DNA of 64,000 bases from Enorma massiliensis phI (lineage in GTDB: Bacteria > Actinomycetota > Coriobacteriia > Coriobacteriales > Coriobacteriaceae). Of this stretch, positions 27,490-60,940 are shown in pieces. The DNA lies in assembly GCF_000311845.1 (NCBI RefSeq), contig NZ_HE978574.1:300737-364736 (forward strand), given 5' to 3'. The position numbers were made by a program, and so were the translations under genes. The notes beneath the pieces are model-generated. The model saw nothing but the letters and a program-made list of their open reading frames with translations. It was not told where the DNA came from and made no database searches. Every line of letters starts with the position of its first letter. Position 1 is the first letter of the stretch.

Positions 27490-27609
27490 GCCTGCTCCCT
27501 ATGCTCGTTTGGTTCCGTGGTCGCGCCTGCCAGTATAGCCCTGCCGCTGTGGGGTTCATGCGTTTACTCATTTCGTTACATCACGGCTGCCAGATTGGCC
27601 ATTTTGGGC

Positions 27610-27638
27610 CATTTTGGGACGGGGTCGTTTTGACTCAT
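27610..27638. repeat. Family E repeat, single copy
   Basis: CATTTTGGGACGGGGTCG followed by TTTTGACTCAT. It matches the units in the larger elements at 54613 and 58851. It lies between panE and pflA and is preceded by a partial duplicate (CATTTTGGGC). Confidence 0.75.
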
Positions 27639-27786
27639 CGAGCCCGCGTGCCCGCATCGATTGCAGCGCGCGGGCGCTTTTTGTTTGTGCGGCGCCGCCC
27701 CTTCCTTGGGAAGTCATTTCTCTTCTGTATCGACTTCCCCCATTGTTCTGTGCGCGCCGGACGCAGATGGAGGACGTACAATAGCG

Positions 27787-53481: not shown

Positions 53482-54564
53482 TTACTCGTCGCCGAAGCTG
53501 ATGCCGAGCGCTTTTGCCTCGCGCACGAGATCGCTTTCGGGGTCGACGTACTTAAGCTTGCCGGCAACATCTTCAAGGGGCACGCGGCACATGTGGCGAT
53601 CGCGCTGCGCGACCATGAAGCCGAACTCGCCTTCGAGGCAGCCGAGCGCCGCCTCCACGCCGCACTGCGTGGCGAAGATGCGGTCCTGAGCATCGGGGAT
53701 GCCGCCGCGCTGGGTATGGCCGGGGATGGCAACGCGGGTCTCGCGTCCGGTCTTCGACTCAATCTCCTTAGCGATGTCGTACACGATCGACGGGCTCGTG
53801 CGAGCCGCTACCTTCTTCTTATATTCCTTCTTGGACAGCGCGGCGTCCTCTTTGGAGATGGCGCCCTCCGCCACCGCGATGATGGTGAAACGGCTGCCCG
53901 TTTCCATGCGCTTTTCGATGGTCTTGATCACGTTGTCCATGCTGTACGGAATCTCGGGAATCAAGATTACGTCTGCACCGCCGGCAACGCCCGCGTACAG
54001 CGGGATCCAGCCAACCTTGTGGCCCATGATCTCGATCACGAATACGCGGCCATGTGAGCTCGCGGTGGTGTGAATGTCGTCGATGCACTTGGTGGCGATC
54101 TCCACGGCGCTCGTGAAACCGAACGTCATCTCGGTTCCCCAGGTGTCGTTGTCGATGGTCTTGGGCAGTGCGATAACGTTGAGGCCCTCCTGCGATAGGC
54201 GGTTTGCCGTCTTGGTGGAGCCGTTGCCGCCCAGCATGAAGAGGCAATCGAGGTTGAGGTCGTGATAGGTCTGCTTCATGGCGGGAACCTTCTCCACGCC
54301 GTCGGCCTCGGGCGTGTCGATGCGCTTGAACGGCGTGCGGCTCGTTCCCAGGATGGTGCCGCCGCGCGTGAGGATGCCGCTGAAGTCGTGGGCATCCATC
54401 TTGCGATAGCGCCGATAGATCATGCCCTGGTAGCCGTCCTCAAAACCGTAGATCTCGACGGGCTCAGAGCTCTTGTTGATGAGCGTCTTGACGATGCCGC
54501 GCATGGTGGCGTTGAGAGCCTGGCAATCGCCGCCACTGGTGAGCAAGCCAATTCGAAGTGTCAT
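53482..54564 (-). CDS. pfkA: 6-phosphofructokinase (PfkA family)
   Basis: 360-residue glycolytic enzyme that phosphorylates fructose 6-phosphate to fructose 1,6-bisphosphate. The N-terminal GLLTSGGDCQALNATMRG, the substrate region PKTIDNDTWGTEMTFGF and VIEIMGHKVGW are in place. The nucleotide motif reads GGNGSTKTA where ATP enzymes have GGDGS, and PKTIDND carries the lysine typical of pyrophosphate-using enzymes while the Gly after Asn is ATP-type. Phosphoryl donor preference is therefore uncertain. ATG after GGGGA. Confidence 0.92.
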   Translation of the reverse strand: MTLRIGLLTSGGDCQALNATMRGIVKTLINKSSEPVEIYGFEDGYQGMIYRRYRKMDAHDFSGILTRGGTILGTSRTPFKRIDTPEADGVEKVPAMKQTYHDLNLDCLFMLGGNGSTKTANRLSQEGLNVIALPKTIDNDTWGTEMTFGFTSAVEIATKCIDDIHTTASSHGRVFVIEIMGHKVGWIPLYAGVAGGADVILIPEIPYSMDNVIKTIEKRMETGSRFTIIAVAEGAISKEDAALSKKEYKKKVAARTSPSIVYDIAKEIESKTGRETRVAIPGHTQRGGIPDAQDRIFATQCGVEAALGCLEGEFGFMVAQRDRHMCRVPLEDVAGKLKYVDPESDLVREAKALGISFGDE

Positions 54565-54612: not shown

Positions 54613-54797
54613 GAGTCATATTGGGACGGGGTTGTTTTGACGCAGCCATATTGGAATGTGGGCGGCGCGCCTTATAGGGGAGGTGCAGTGCAATGAGCCA
54701 AGGTTGCCCTGTCCTGAGTCAAAACGGACCCGTCCCAATATGACCGGCGGGGGTGCGGATGAGTCAAAACGGACCCGTCCCAAAATGACTCAAAATG
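54613..54797. repeat. Family E element 2 (185 bp)
   Basis: The left unit at 54613-54644 (GTCATATTGGGACGGGGTTG) is inverted relative to two right units at 54716-54744 and 54761-54789 (GAGTCAAAACGGACCCGTCC). Between the two right units is CGGCGGGGGTGCGGAT. The right end lies two bases from the stop codon of the LuxR-type gene (54800). Confidence 0.85.
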
Positions 54798-54799
54798 GT

Positions 54800-55768
54800 T
54801 TACGCATCTGTCCAATAGTCCTGCCGAAGCTCTTGCCGATCGCGGCATCCGGTTTTGCGCAGGATGTTGTGAATGTGCACCTTAACCGTGCTGAGCGAAA
54901 GCGAGAGGGCCGAAGCGATGTTCTGGTTGTCCATGCCGCCCAATACCATGCGCAGTACTTCTTGCTCGCGCGGAGAAAGCTTGTGGCGCTTGGCGTAAAG
55001 CGGCAGATGCGCCTCTACAAAGTCTTCCTGTTGCTCCGTTTGTCGCTGCGGAGGGTTTTCGAACCTCAGCGAAAGGCTTATGAGCGCGCTGCGGCACGCA
55101 ACGAGCATGCAGCAGAGCATGAGAGCGTTCTCCGAGTAATTGCGCTCGGGCGCGACGGCGCGCAAATCCATGATGAAGCCCGTGGGATTCGGGCCCAGGA
55201 AAAACGCGGCGTCTTCGATGACCATGCCGGCTCCGAGCGCCCAGAGCACGAGATAGATCCATTTGGCGCGCGCGATGCGCTTTCGCTCGAAATCGTCGCG
55301 AGTAAAGACGTAGCGTGCTCCTGTATACAACAGCATCCAAGCAAGGAAAACCGCACGCGGCGTATAGAAGATGAACCGCGCCAGGTTGTCGTCTTCCGGC
55401 AACGGAACGATGAGGGCGATGATGCTCACCGCGGTGAACACCAGGCACGGGATGACTCGCATCTTCAAGCTGCTATGCCCGAGGTATTCGCAGATAACGA
55501 GCCAGAACGTTGACATGAAGCCGACGCCGGAGACGATGGTGGCGATCGAGCGCACCGCGATATAGAGCTGGTCGTGCCACATATGTCCGAAGCCGACGAT
55601 GTTGTCTTGGAAAACCCAGGCAACGTCGAAGAAGTAGAAAAAGAATCCCACGGCGCCCAGCAGGAAGAGCTGTCGGCGTGATACCAAGTACGCCGAGAGG
55701 CACACGGCAGACGTCAGGATGGAGGCGAGCAGCACGAAGAGCGTGAAATGGAGAACGACGAAGTCCAT
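54800..55768 (-). CDS. Membrane-bound LuxR-family transcriptional regulator
   Basis: 322 residues. The first about 230 residues hold seven hydrophobic helices (starting DFVVLHFTLFVLLASILTSA). The C-terminal 65 residues are a LuxR helix-turn-helix (LSPREQEVLRMVLGGMDNQNIASALSLSLSTVKVH, given here only as the region of residues 259-315). Integral membrane LuxR proteins are abundant in Eggerthella, Slackia and relatives, often beside transporters. Here it is divergent from a permease and aminotransferase, so it probably senses and controls that pathway. ATG after GGGGGGT. Confidence 0.84.
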   Translation of the reverse strand: MDFVVLHFTLFVLLASILTSAVCLSAYLVSRRQLFLLGAVGFFFYFFDVAWVFQDNIVGFGHMWHDQLYIAVRSIATIVSGVGFMSTFWLVICEYLGHSSLKMRVIPCLVFTAVSIIALIVPLPEDDNLARFIFYTPRAVFLAWMLLYTGARYVFTRDDFERKRIARAKWIYLVLWALGAGMVIEDAAFFLGPNPTGFIMDLRAVAPERNYSENALMLCCMLVACRSALISLSLRFENPPQRQTEQQEDFVEAHLPLYAKRHKLSPREQEVLRMVLGGMDNQNIASALSLSLSTVKVHIHNILRKTGCRDRQELRQDYWTDA

Positions 55769-57734: not shown

Positions 57735-58853
57735 ATGAAGATTGCAACCATCGGCGTGGAGGACTGGCTCAACGTTTACGAGAAGAACGCGACGGTGGAT
57801 ATTGCCCAGTCGACCATCGCGTCGCTCACCATGGACGAGATCTTGCGACTCGACGGCACGGATGGCGCCGGTTTTTACGAGCAGCTTGGCCGGGAAAAGA
57901 TGAACTACGGCTGGATCGAGGGCTCGCCCGACTTCAAAGCGGAGGTGGCGAAGCTTTACGAAAACGTCGAGCCTGAGAACATCTTGCAGACGAATGGCGC
58001 TACCGGCGCGAACCTTCTCGCCCTTATGACGCTCGTGGAACCGGGCGACCACGTGATCGCGGAGTATCCAACCTACCAGCCGCTGTACGAGATTCCCCGC
58101 ACGCTCGGGGCGGATGTGGAGTACTGGCATATTCAGGAGGAGCTTGGCTGGCAGCCGGATATTGCCGAGCTCGAGCGGCTCGTGAGGCCGAATACCAAGC
58201 TCATCTGCATTAACAACGCGTCAAATCCGCTCGGCACCGTGCTCTCGCGCGAGACGCTTGAGCGAATTGTCGAGATTGCGCGTTCGGTGGGCGCTTATGT
58301 GCTTTCGGACGAGGTGTATCTGCCGCTGGAGGATACGGATTCATTTGTTTCCATGGCCGATCTGTACGACCGCGCCGTGGTGACGAACAGTATTTCCAAG
58401 ACGTACTCGGTGCCGGCCGCGCGCATTGGCTGGACGGTGTCGAATGCCGAGGTGGCGGACCGGATTCGCACGTACCGCGACTACACGCTCATTTGCGGAG
58501 GTGTGTTCAACGACGCTTTGGCGGTCCATGTGCTGCGTAATCGCGAGCGGATTATGGAGCGTAACCGCGCTATCGTTTTAGGCAACCGAGACATTGCGCA
58601 GGCTTGGGTGGATGAGGAGCCGCGCGTGCGCTGGGTTTCGCCCAAGGGGGTGTCTACGTCGTACATCCAGTTCGATATCCCTATGGACGACGAGGAGTTC
58701 TGCCTGAAGCTCCTGCGCGAGCGCGGCGTGCTGTTGGTGCCGGGTAGCCGGTTCGAGCTGCCCTGCGGCGCGCGTTTGGGCTACTGCGCATCTGAGGAGA
58801 CGCTTCGTCGTGGCTTGGCGCTGCTTTCGGAGGCGCTGCGCGAATTCGACTGA
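57735..58853 (+). CDS. PLP-dependent aminotransferase, class I/II fold
   Basis: 372 residues. PLP-fold landmarks are NGATGANLLALMTLVEPGD, the NNASNPLG loop, SDEVYLPLE and the PLP lysine in NSISKTYSVPAARIGW, followed by the phosphate-binding Arg. The ATG at 57735 follows GAAAGGA; a TTG six bases earlier is less likely. The pairing with an ArcD-like permease suggests a role in basic amino-acid use. Some relatives act on arginine derivatives (for example capreomycidine synthase), so a reaction other than transamination is possible. The TGA stop is part of repeat family E. Confidence 0.84.
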   Translation: MKIATIGVEDWLNVYEKNATVDIAQSTIASLTMDEILRLDGTDGAGFYEQLGREKMNYGWIEGSPDFKAEVAKLYENVEPENILQTNGATGANLLALMTLVEPGDHVIAEYPTYQPLYEIPRTLGADVEYWHIQEELGWQPDIAELERLVRPNTKLICINNASNPLGTVLSRETLERIVEIARSVGAYVLSDEVYLPLEDTDSFVSMADLYDRAVVTNSISKTYSVPAARIGWTVSNAEVADRIRTYRDYTLICGGVFNDALAVHVLRNRERIMERNRAIVLGNRDIAQAWVDEEPRVRWVSPKGVSTSYIQFDIPMDDEEFCLKLLRERGVLLVPGSRFELPCGARLGYCASEETLRRGLALLSEALREFD

Positions 58854-59164
58854 GTCATTTTGGGACGGGTCCGTTTGGCCATTTTGGGACGGGTCCGTTT
58901 TGACTCATTCTGTCGCTATCTGAAAACCGCCGTCGGGATCAAACGTCCTGGCGGCGGTTTCTTGTTCGCGTTATGGGGCGGGGGCGTCACGCGTGCGGCG
59001 GAAGTTTCTGTGATGGGCCGGGGCAAGCACGGGCGACCAGAACAGCCGCGATGAGCCGGGGCCTCCGCGATGAGTCAAAACGGACCCGTCCCAAAATGAC
59101 CGGCGGGGTGCGGATGAGTCAAAACGGACCCGTCCCAAAATGACCAAAATGACTCAAAATGACC
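58851..59164. repeat. Family E element 3, flanking a terminator
   Basis: The left part (58851-58908) has two units containing CATTTTGGGACGGGTCCGTTT. The right part (59071-59164) has two inverted units (GAGTCAAAACGGACCCGTCC) and short CAAAATGAC repeats. The aminotransferase stop codon is the first TGA of the left unit, and the dxs-like stop is one base past the right end. The element therefore fills the space exactly between two convergent genes. Confidence 0.87.
58922..58966 (+). terminator. Terminator between convergent genes
   Basis: AAACCGCCG and CGGCGGTTT pair around 19 bases, followed by TCTTG. It sits inside repeat element E3 and closes the aminotransferase transcript. Confidence 0.7.
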
Positions 59165-60940
59165 TTACAGCAAGCTGGTGATGTCGCGGACGATTCCCTC
59201 GACGGTGACGCCGTTCTGCTCAAGCAGCTTGCGAGGGTCGAAGCGGTCGTGGAAGTGGTTATCGATGCCGTAGCAGCGAACGCGCACGTCACGGTCGCTC
59301 AGGCGTCGGGCGATCTTTTCGCCCCATCCGCCGGCGAGGACGCCGTCTTCCAGCGTGACAACAACGCGGTGCCGATCGGGCAGGGAAGAAATGAGCTCCT
59401 CGTCAAATTCCGAGGCGAAGCGCGGGTTGACGAGTGTGGCTTGGATCCCATGCTCAGCAAGGGCAGCTACGACCCGTTCGCCAAGCTCGAAGAAATCGCC
59501 CAAGGCGAGTACGGCAACATCCTGGCCATGCTTCACGACACGGTATGTCGGCTTGGAGAAATCGGGCGCATCGTCAAGATCGGCCACAAGGTCGGGGCGC
59601 GAAACGGGTTTGGTCCCCGGCACGCGAATCACGACGGGCAGCTCGCGCTGGCCAAGCGACCAGTCGAGCATAAGCAGGTATTCCTCGACGCAGGTTGGGG
59701 CGAACACGCGCAGGTTGGGCAAGCTCCCCAGCATGGCGAGGTCAAAATAGTTGAGATGCGTTTCGGCTGAAGCGCCGAAGACCGACGCGCCGATGTCGAG
59801 AATGGTAGCCGGAGCACAGTTGAGGCAGAGATCGTGCCAGAGCTCGTCATAAGAGCGCTGCAGGAATGCGCCATACACGCCGAACACCGGCGAGGCGCCC
59901 GCCGCGGCGAGCGACGTGATGAACGTAACCGCATGCTCCTCGGCGATGCCGACGTCCACGAACTGCTGCCCGGCTTGGGCGCGGCGCTCCTGGGTGAAGC
60001 CCATGACATAGGGCATGCCCGCCGTCACGCCAACAACGCGCGGGTTGCGCTTCATGGCCTCGAGCAGGTGTGCGCCGGTGATATCGGCATAGGTGCCCTC
60101 CGGGACATCGCCCGAGATGAGCGTATGCTTGCGGCCCGATTCGATGTCGAAGGAGCCAACATGGTGCCAAACCTCGGGCGCACGCTCCGCGGGATCATAG
60201 CCGGCACCTTTGGTGGTGTGGACGTGCAGTACCACGGGATGGTCGATGCCGCGAAGCGCTTCGAGCGCCTCGACCAGGGAACCAACATCGTTGCCCTCTT
60301 CGAGGTAGCGATAATCGAACCCCATCGCGCGGAAGATGTTGTTCGAGGCAGTTCCGCCCGAGGTGCGCAGGCGCGCCAGGCAGCCGTAGATTCCGCCATG
60401 GTTTTCGGCGATCGACTGGTCGTTATCATTAACCACGATAACGATGCCGCTGTTCAAAACGGCGGCGTTGTCGAGCCCCTCAAATGCGAGCCCGCCCGAG
60501 AGCGAGCCGTCGCCAATTACGGCAACGACATCGTAGCGCTCGCCGGCAAGGTCGCGCGCCTTGGCCAAGCCGCACGCCAAGCTGATGGAGGTCGAGGTGT
60601 GGCCCATCGAGAAGAAATCGTGCTCTGACTCGTGCGGATTGGAGAACCCGGAGACCTCGCCGTAATGCGCGGGGTCGGTGAACGCCGCAGCACGCCCGGT
60701 AAGCACCTTGTGGGCATAGCTCTGATGCGAAACGTCAAAGATGATCTTGTCGCGCGGCGAATCGAAGACGCGGTGCAGCGCGACGGTGAGCTCAACGACT
60801 CCGAGATTGGGGGCGAGGTGGCCGCCAACAGCAGCTGCGTTTTCGAGGATGGCGCGGCGAACTTCGTCGCATAGCTGGGGGAGCGCCGTGGCATCGAGTG
60901 CCTTCACGTCCCGTGGTGATGCGATGTGTTCGAGAAGCAT
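59165..60940 (-). CDS. Divergent 1-deoxy-D-xylulose-5-phosphate synthase-like enzyme
   Basis: 591-residue thiamine diphosphate enzyme with DXS domain order. The N-terminal AAAVGGHLAPNLGVVELTVA, DVSHQSYAHKVLTGR and MGHTSTSISLACGLAKA are DXS-like; the TPP motif is GDGSLSGG followed by NDNDQSI. The pyrimidine domain retains GIAEEHAVTF and YGAFLQRSYDEL. The usual DRAGxxGxDGxTHxGxFD segment reads DIGASVFGASAETHLNYFD, so the normally conserved Arg and Asp are missing and only the His is kept. It is about 30 residues shorter than standard DXS. It is either a DXS variant or a paralogue with another acceptor. No other MEP gene is nearby. Confidence 0.8.
   Translation of the reverse strand: MLLEHIASPRDVKALDATALPQLCDEVRRAILENAAAVGGHLAPNLGVVELTVALHRVFDSPRDKIIFDVSHQSYAHKVLTGRAAAFTDPAHYGEVSGFSNPHESEHDFFSMGHTSTSISLACGLAKARDLAGERYDVVAVIGDGSLSGGLAFEGLDNAAVLNSGIVIVVNDNDQSIAENHGGIYGCLARLRTSGGTASNNIFRAMGFDYRYLEEGNDVGSLVEALEALRGIDHPVVLHVHTTKGAGYDPAERAPEVWHHVGSFDIESGRKHTLISGDVPEGTYADITGAHLLEAMKRNPRVVGVTAGMPYVMGFTQERRAQAGQQFVDVGIAEEHAVTFITSLAAAGASPVFGVYGAFLQRSYDELWHDLCLNCAPATILDIGASVFGASAETHLNYFDLAMLGSLPNLRVFAPTCVEEYLLMLDWSLGQRELPVVIRVPGTKPVSRPDLVADLDDAPDFSKPTYRVVKHGQDVAVLALGDFFELGERVVAALAEHGIQATLVNPRFASEFDEELISSLPDRHRVVVTLEDGVLAGGWGEKIARRLSDRDVRVRCYGIDNHFHDRFDPRKLLEQNGVTVEGIVRDITSLL

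Follow-up and report, generated by a model that had tools for sequence, protein, structure and literature searches.

The window analysed here is a 64,000-nucleotide stretch of the Enorma massiliensis phI genome. Near its right end, an aminotransferase-like gene and a dxs-like gene converge on a gap of 311 bp that is occupied in part by two arrays of a small repeat (Table 1). The repeat unit, TGAGTCATTTTGGGACGGGTCCGTTTTGACTCA, is an imperfect palindrome of 31-33 bp with arms TGAGTCA and TGACTCA. In the left array, CATTTTGGGACGGGTCCGTTT is present twice in direct orientation, the copies being 24 bp apart; the right array contains GATGAGTCAAAACGGACCCGTCCCAAAATGACC twice, again as direct copies. 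The two arrays are inverted relative to each other (arms, 40 nt at 93% and 32 nt at 97%), and each is sense-oriented behind its own gene. Gene calls came from a home-made codon-usage finder whose stop positions are reliable for strong calls and whose start positions are not. For comparison, we used the five genomes of the genus, namely the window genome (G000, 2.28 Mb) and its relatives G001 to G004, G002 being [Collinsella] massiliensis.

Table 1. Genes and repeat arrays of the window (positions are those of the window).
Feature	Position	Strand	Remarks
Single unit between two divergent genes	27602..27641	+	common to relative G001, same place
Sister array: one + unit, two - units (><<), between LuxR-type and phosphofructokinase-like genes	54613..54798		absent from the same gap of G002
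Aminotransferase-like gene	57735..58853	+	left array opens with its stop codon, TGA (58851-58853)
Left array: two direct-repeat units	58851..58908	+	GGGACGGG strand runs with the coding strand of the aminotransferase gene
Separate GC-rich terminator-like hairpin, outside unit sequence	58924..58960		15-nt arms, 87% complementary
Right array: two units of 33 bp, 44 bp apart, and partial ends of units	59069..59164	-	GGGACGGG strand runs with the coding strand of dxs
dxs-like gene	59165..60940	-	stop 59165-59167 (TTA on +)

The preliminary description of this region had taken the repeats for one element that exactly fills the space between the two genes. This view had to be abandoned, since the arrays are separated by approximately 160 bp of unrelated, non-unit DNA (58909-59068), which rules out a single element sized to the gap. 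The remaining structural claims held up well: the left array does open with the aminotransferase stop codon, the right array directly adjoins the dxs stop, the single unit near 27610 exists, and the sister element does lie beside the stop of the LuxR-type gene (54800-54802, minus strand), finishing just short of it. The suggestion that the arrays enclose a normal terminator was borne out in part, in that a separate terminator-like hairpin is found in the intervening DNA; a strict terminator scan returned 0 sites. The DNA fold of this hairpin has a z score of -4.9, versus about -2 for a single unit, which is only moderately better than shuffled sequences. The linker CGGCGGGG(G)TGCGGAT, said to join paired units in both large elements, was indeed present in both, and a genome-wide search recovered it at the aminotransferase/dxs and sister arrays only. 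Confinement of the linker to these two sites suggests that a paired composite was copied between them. The aminotransferase/dxs gap would then have acquired arrays behind both of its genes, the composite with its linker having been copied between sites 4 kb apart.

The existence of a paired and inverted repeat family was confirmed by pattern searches of the whole genome. The sequence TTTGGGACGGGTCCGTTTTGA, allowed up to 3 mismatches in 21 positions, gave 33 matches against 0 for the reversed pattern, and a relaxed pattern gave 48 against 0. These counts are pattern-based, without a full model, and the invariance of GGGACG and TTT among the units is partly imposed by the way they were collected; the 52 units of the window genome considered below are the places pooled from the pattern searches. 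The relaxed pattern is present in 18 of 65 genomes of the family, those of the 18 other than the window genome having 1 to 9 copies. A pattern built on the G002 version of the unit matched 93 times in G002 itself, 4 times each in G000 and G003, and 0 times in G001 and G004 (reversed pattern, 0). Such genome-specific populations are the picture expected if the units follow each genome's own transposase. No unit was found in G004 with any of the unit patterns tried, and this genome has no Y1_Tnp match either. At gathering score, no Rfam family matched between positions 54000 and 60000 of the window.

Three Y1_Tnp genes are present in the window genome. One of them (C1:1557955) is bracketed by inverted units, three upstream and three downstream, one of the latter partial. 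A second (C1:948944) has units on its downstream side only, at a distance of 500-600 bp, and the third (C1:1419510) has no GGGAC unit nearby. Having two of the three genes within 1.5 kb of a unit cluster was matched in 86 of 20,000 random placements. The subtype found in the window, with an ATTTT arm, does not lie 3' of C1:1557955, where the arm reads AAAAT; an ATTCT form occurs on the 5' side. The gpmI-transposase neighbourhood is kept in G000, G001, G002 and G003, with 58-63% identity at the protein level and changed repeat arms, and its transposase gene is missing in G004.

The transposase scores 50 bits with the Pfam Y1_Tnp model (cut-off 23) and carries the motifs DNHVHLL and YIHENP. In an alignment of 46 sequences, N59, H60, H62 and N123 are invariant, and Y119 and P124 are conserved at 90% or above. 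The NCBIfam model REP_Tyr_transpos matches with an E value of 4e-20 and 72 bits, below its curated cut-off of 80. A profile of the 46 relatives found a sole sequence match in the PDB, 4er8 (TnpA-REP; E = 4.8e-5), and the same entry, which shows a RAYT in complex with a REP hairpin, was the best fold match of the predicted model (pLDDT 91; E = 1.7e-7). Towards the C-terminus, where TIRYT or subclass 2.1 enzymes have a helix-turn-helix extension and where the model predicts helices at residues 203-246, helix-turn-helix Pfam models score below cut-off, the best being HTH_7 with 21.1 against 23.8.

The flanks of related genes were analysed at 103 transposase loci with enough flanking sequence, drawn from the best 80 of 221 relatives together with the family loci and the gene itself. 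Terminal inverted repeats lay above the 99% level set by 515 shuffled controls at 91 of the 103 loci, and the GGGAC motif lies inside 72 of these 91 repeats (it is missing from the other 19), the relatives again being the best 80 of 221. When the null was made from flanks swapped among real loci, only 20 of 75 terminal repeats rose above its 99% level; the sharing of repeats among related loci makes this null too conservative, and shuffles were used instead. The arms differ from lineage to lineage yet stay complementary, as in the pairs GTCAAAA/TTTTGAC, TGAGACAAA/TTTGTCTCA and GTGAACAG/CTGTTCAC. Across 45 clusters, from the same best 80 of 221 relatives, the longest perfect arm pairing averages 6.0 bp in native combinations versus 4.1 bp in swapped ones, and 0 of 2000 permutations reach the native value.

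In our view, the units very probably represent the terminal-inverted-repeat hairpins of TIRYT/RAYT-type REP-associated tyrosine transposases (HUH-Y1) and have spread in trans as short, non-autonomous REP-like repeats. Their arms would pair around the conserved GGGACGGG core, perhaps presenting the core for recognition by the HUH-Y1 enzyme. We infer that the resident transposase moves or copies the units; no target-site duplication or excision footprint was defined and no movement was observed.

The insertional origin of the arrays was examined at orthologous sites, a comparison already proposed in the preliminary description. All three relatives that keep both genes (G002, G003 and G004) lack the unit in the aminotransferase-dxs gap, which measures approximately 170 bp and contains a plain hairpin in G002, approximately 10 bp in G003 and approximately 290 bp in G004; in G001 the neighbour of dxs is another gene. 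Since these orthologous gaps are free of units, the array is, as judged by sequence comparison, an insertion in this lineage rather than the product of terminator evolution in place. No unit is present in the LuxR-phosphofructokinase gap of G002 either. Some copies are old, as indicated by the unit near 27610, which is common to G000 and G001 and lies between genes whose products are 96-98% identical. The 3' end of leuC has a shared unit in G000 and G001, a version of its own in G002 and none in G004. As a separate observation, an inverted repeat of another type, CAGTTTTTCAAGTAGTAGGTACC ... GGTACCGACTACTTGAAAAACTG, fills the aminotransferase-dxs gap of G004 (locus L140, 1180-1530); as stated above, G004 has no Y1_Tnp match.

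The 29 unit clusters of the window genome comprise 19 in co-directional gaps, 6 in divergent and 2 in convergent ones, with a further 2 inside called genes. A stop codon is found no more than 25 bp away from 17 of the 27 intergenic clusters, versus a mean of 6.3 for random placement (0 of 5000 placements). Where a unit lies no more than 40 bp behind a stop, its orientation is sense in all 19 cases of G000, 25 of 26 cases of G002 and 6 of 7 cases from other genomes. These counts include mixed clusters, whose outer unit points outward by construction; when only single-orientation clusters are considered, the proportions are 12/12 in G000 and 13/14 in G002. Near start codons, units point away from the gene (3 of 3 in G000, 6 of 8 in G002). 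As regards a possible replication-strand bias, sense units behind plus-strand and minus-strand genes are interspersed on contig C1.

In many instances the repeat also provides the stop codon. In G002, 19 of the 26 stop-adjacent cases use the TGA of the unit as the stop, and TGA terminates 17 of 24 genes with a unit versus 9 of 88 genes without (Fisher p = 1e-8). The corresponding figures for G000 are 6 of 20 and 17 of 113, an insignificant difference (p = 0.12). At three sites, the unit's TGA stands against TAG or TAA in orthologs without a GGGAC unit: the aminotransferase gene, whose orthologs in G002, G003 and G004 stop with TAG, leuC (relative to G004) and cstA. Most likely, the unit brings the stop codon along. 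A palindromic supply of TGA was considered as the cause of the fixed orientation and rejected: both ends of the unit read TGAGTCA, hence TGA supply alone fails to explain the sense bias. The orientation could instead stem from a directional single-strand target or from an effect at the RNA level; in 44 of 49 distinct units, folding is better for the sense RNA than for the antisense RNA.

The same positional bias would be seen if the units were functional 3'-end elements, terminators or mRNA stabilisers, kept by selection in numbers that reflect their function. The almost uniform orientation behind stops in G000 and G002, the crowding of clusters within 25 bp of stop codons and the better folding of the sense RNA all favour this explanation, as does the transposase-flanking unit behind gpmI in G002, which consists of a hairpin followed by TTTTTT. 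However, the units of the window have no T-run, a scan of positions 58700-59300 returned 0 terminator-like sites, and the gap already holds a separate hairpin. Moreover, orthologous genes manage without units, and the unit sequence is genome-specific and found flanking transposase genes. With the T-run missing, the scan empty and orthologous genes lacking units, termination was discarded as the main role and a terminator function is not supported. Selection for a 3'-end function, as terminator or as stabiliser, appears quite unlikely as an explanation for the family.

The G002 unit behind gpmI, GGGGTTGGTTGG...CCAACCAACCCC followed by TTTTTT, reads as an intrinsic terminator, making co-option of individual units possible.

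Descent from an unrelated DDE transposon, as its MITE-like ends, or from a phage or plasmid element is highly improbable. Inverted units with TG...CA ends do resemble the ends of many transposons, but the same ends are carried by HUH-Y1 genes, the class of transposase that the search covered. The units had no match among 50,697 phage and 72,556 plasmid records, and a phage or plasmid source was set aside on these grounds. Evolution of a terminator in place within the convergent gap is extremely improbable: gap sequences do differ in all three relatives that keep both genes, and a gap of similar length but unrelated sequence, named in the preliminary description as an argument for simple terminator evolution, was found, and only in part, in G004 alone, whose gap carries an inverted repeat of its own, but this explanation is at odds with some 48 dispersed, near-identical copies and with a sister composite sharing the same linker.

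Returning to hairpins probably mobilised by a Y1 transposase, insertion at the last codon of a gene would be tolerated because the unit starts with TGA. More generally, units may be tolerated at gene ends since a stop is supplied and the coding sequence stays intact, a suggestion that is documented in part. Once transcribed, they would add a small hairpin to the 3' ends of mRNAs without being terminators. A more specific proposal, which we put forward tentatively and regard as doubtful, is that an HUH-Y1 system inserts hairpin repeats directionally at stop codons, the orientation being set by a single-strand target or by the transcribed state of the 3' ends of genes, and the unit's TGA becoming the stop of the gene. 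If this were true, targeting would follow the ends of transcription or translation, whereas the targeting described for IS200/IS605 elements is to the replication fork. In any event, sense-only placement, together with the replacement of TAG or TAA by the TGA of the repeat, constitutes a natural experiment on repeat insertion or survival in what are common gut bacteria. Covariation of the arms around a constant GGGAC core likewise offers a testable recognition model for TIRYT or subclass 2.1 enzymes.

Elements of this kind are already known. TIRYT genes, their GGGGWSAS terminal repeats and the dispersal of the latter as TIRtrons are described in Di Nocera et al. 2013 (PMC3733652). The matching class in Quentin et al. 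2018 (PMC6006769) is subclass 2.1, or RAYT group 1, and these authors found no REP-like sequences near subclass 2.1 genes. Two features of this group are present here, namely a Y1_Tnp domain with HUH and Y---NP motifs and terminal inverted repeats flanking the gene. As in the TIRtron account, inverted repeats containing a G-rich, GGGGWSAS-like motif lie on either side of an HUH-Y1 gene, and the repeats, some of them self-complementary, are dispersed as singles, dimers and clusters. The core differs from the one given there, being GGGAC(G/A)(G/T)G, close to GGGGWSAS and not identical with it: GGGGACAG forms conform to that consensus, whereas the GGGACGGG of the window deviates. Relative to subclass 2.1, to which our enzymes are likened by its published description (PMC6006769), the difference is that arms covary around the core over 45 clusters. 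The known kind is thus extended by the family itself, by arms that covary around GGGAC and by a placement that is sense-only and supplies the stop. In searches of the open-licence literature, nothing was found for Coriobacteriia on the family, GGGAC arm covariation or sense-only placement.

As summarised in three reports (PMC2817692, PMC3733652, PMC3116915), GTAG REPs, REPINs and BIMEs are, like our units, paired, inverted, extragenic, near 3' ends and linked to a Y1 transposase. GTAG REPs are also noted in PMC3733652 as often providing the stop TAG to flanking ORFs. The present units differ in having no GTAG or GTGG foot, in having their conserved motif between the arms and in supplying TGA as the stop; in all 52 aligned units the foot is absent, the units beginning with G[AG]GTCA-like sequences. 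CGTC REPs, too, are small palindromic extragenic repeats, and CGTC occurs here on the lower strand of the core. In PMC3733652, however, they are described as having an unpaired tag at the terminus and no linked transposase, whereas here CGTC is internal and units flank a Y1 gene. The ends of IS200/IS605 elements such as IS608 and ISDra2 share the enzyme fold and the hairpin ends; in contrast to them, a brief inspection revealed no compact insertion sequence in identical copies here.

Palindromes of other types were noticed at two of the gene ends mentioned above. At the 3' end of leuC in G003, a different GGGAC palindrome, TGACATTGGGGACAGCCCCCAATGTCA, sits on the stop codon used by other unit types in G000 to G002. 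In the window genome, the 3' end of cstA has another palindrome, AAATGATAAAACGAACCCGGTTCGTTTTATCATTT, directly behind a TAA stop, and its arms resemble the terminal repeats of other transposase loci (TGATAAAA).
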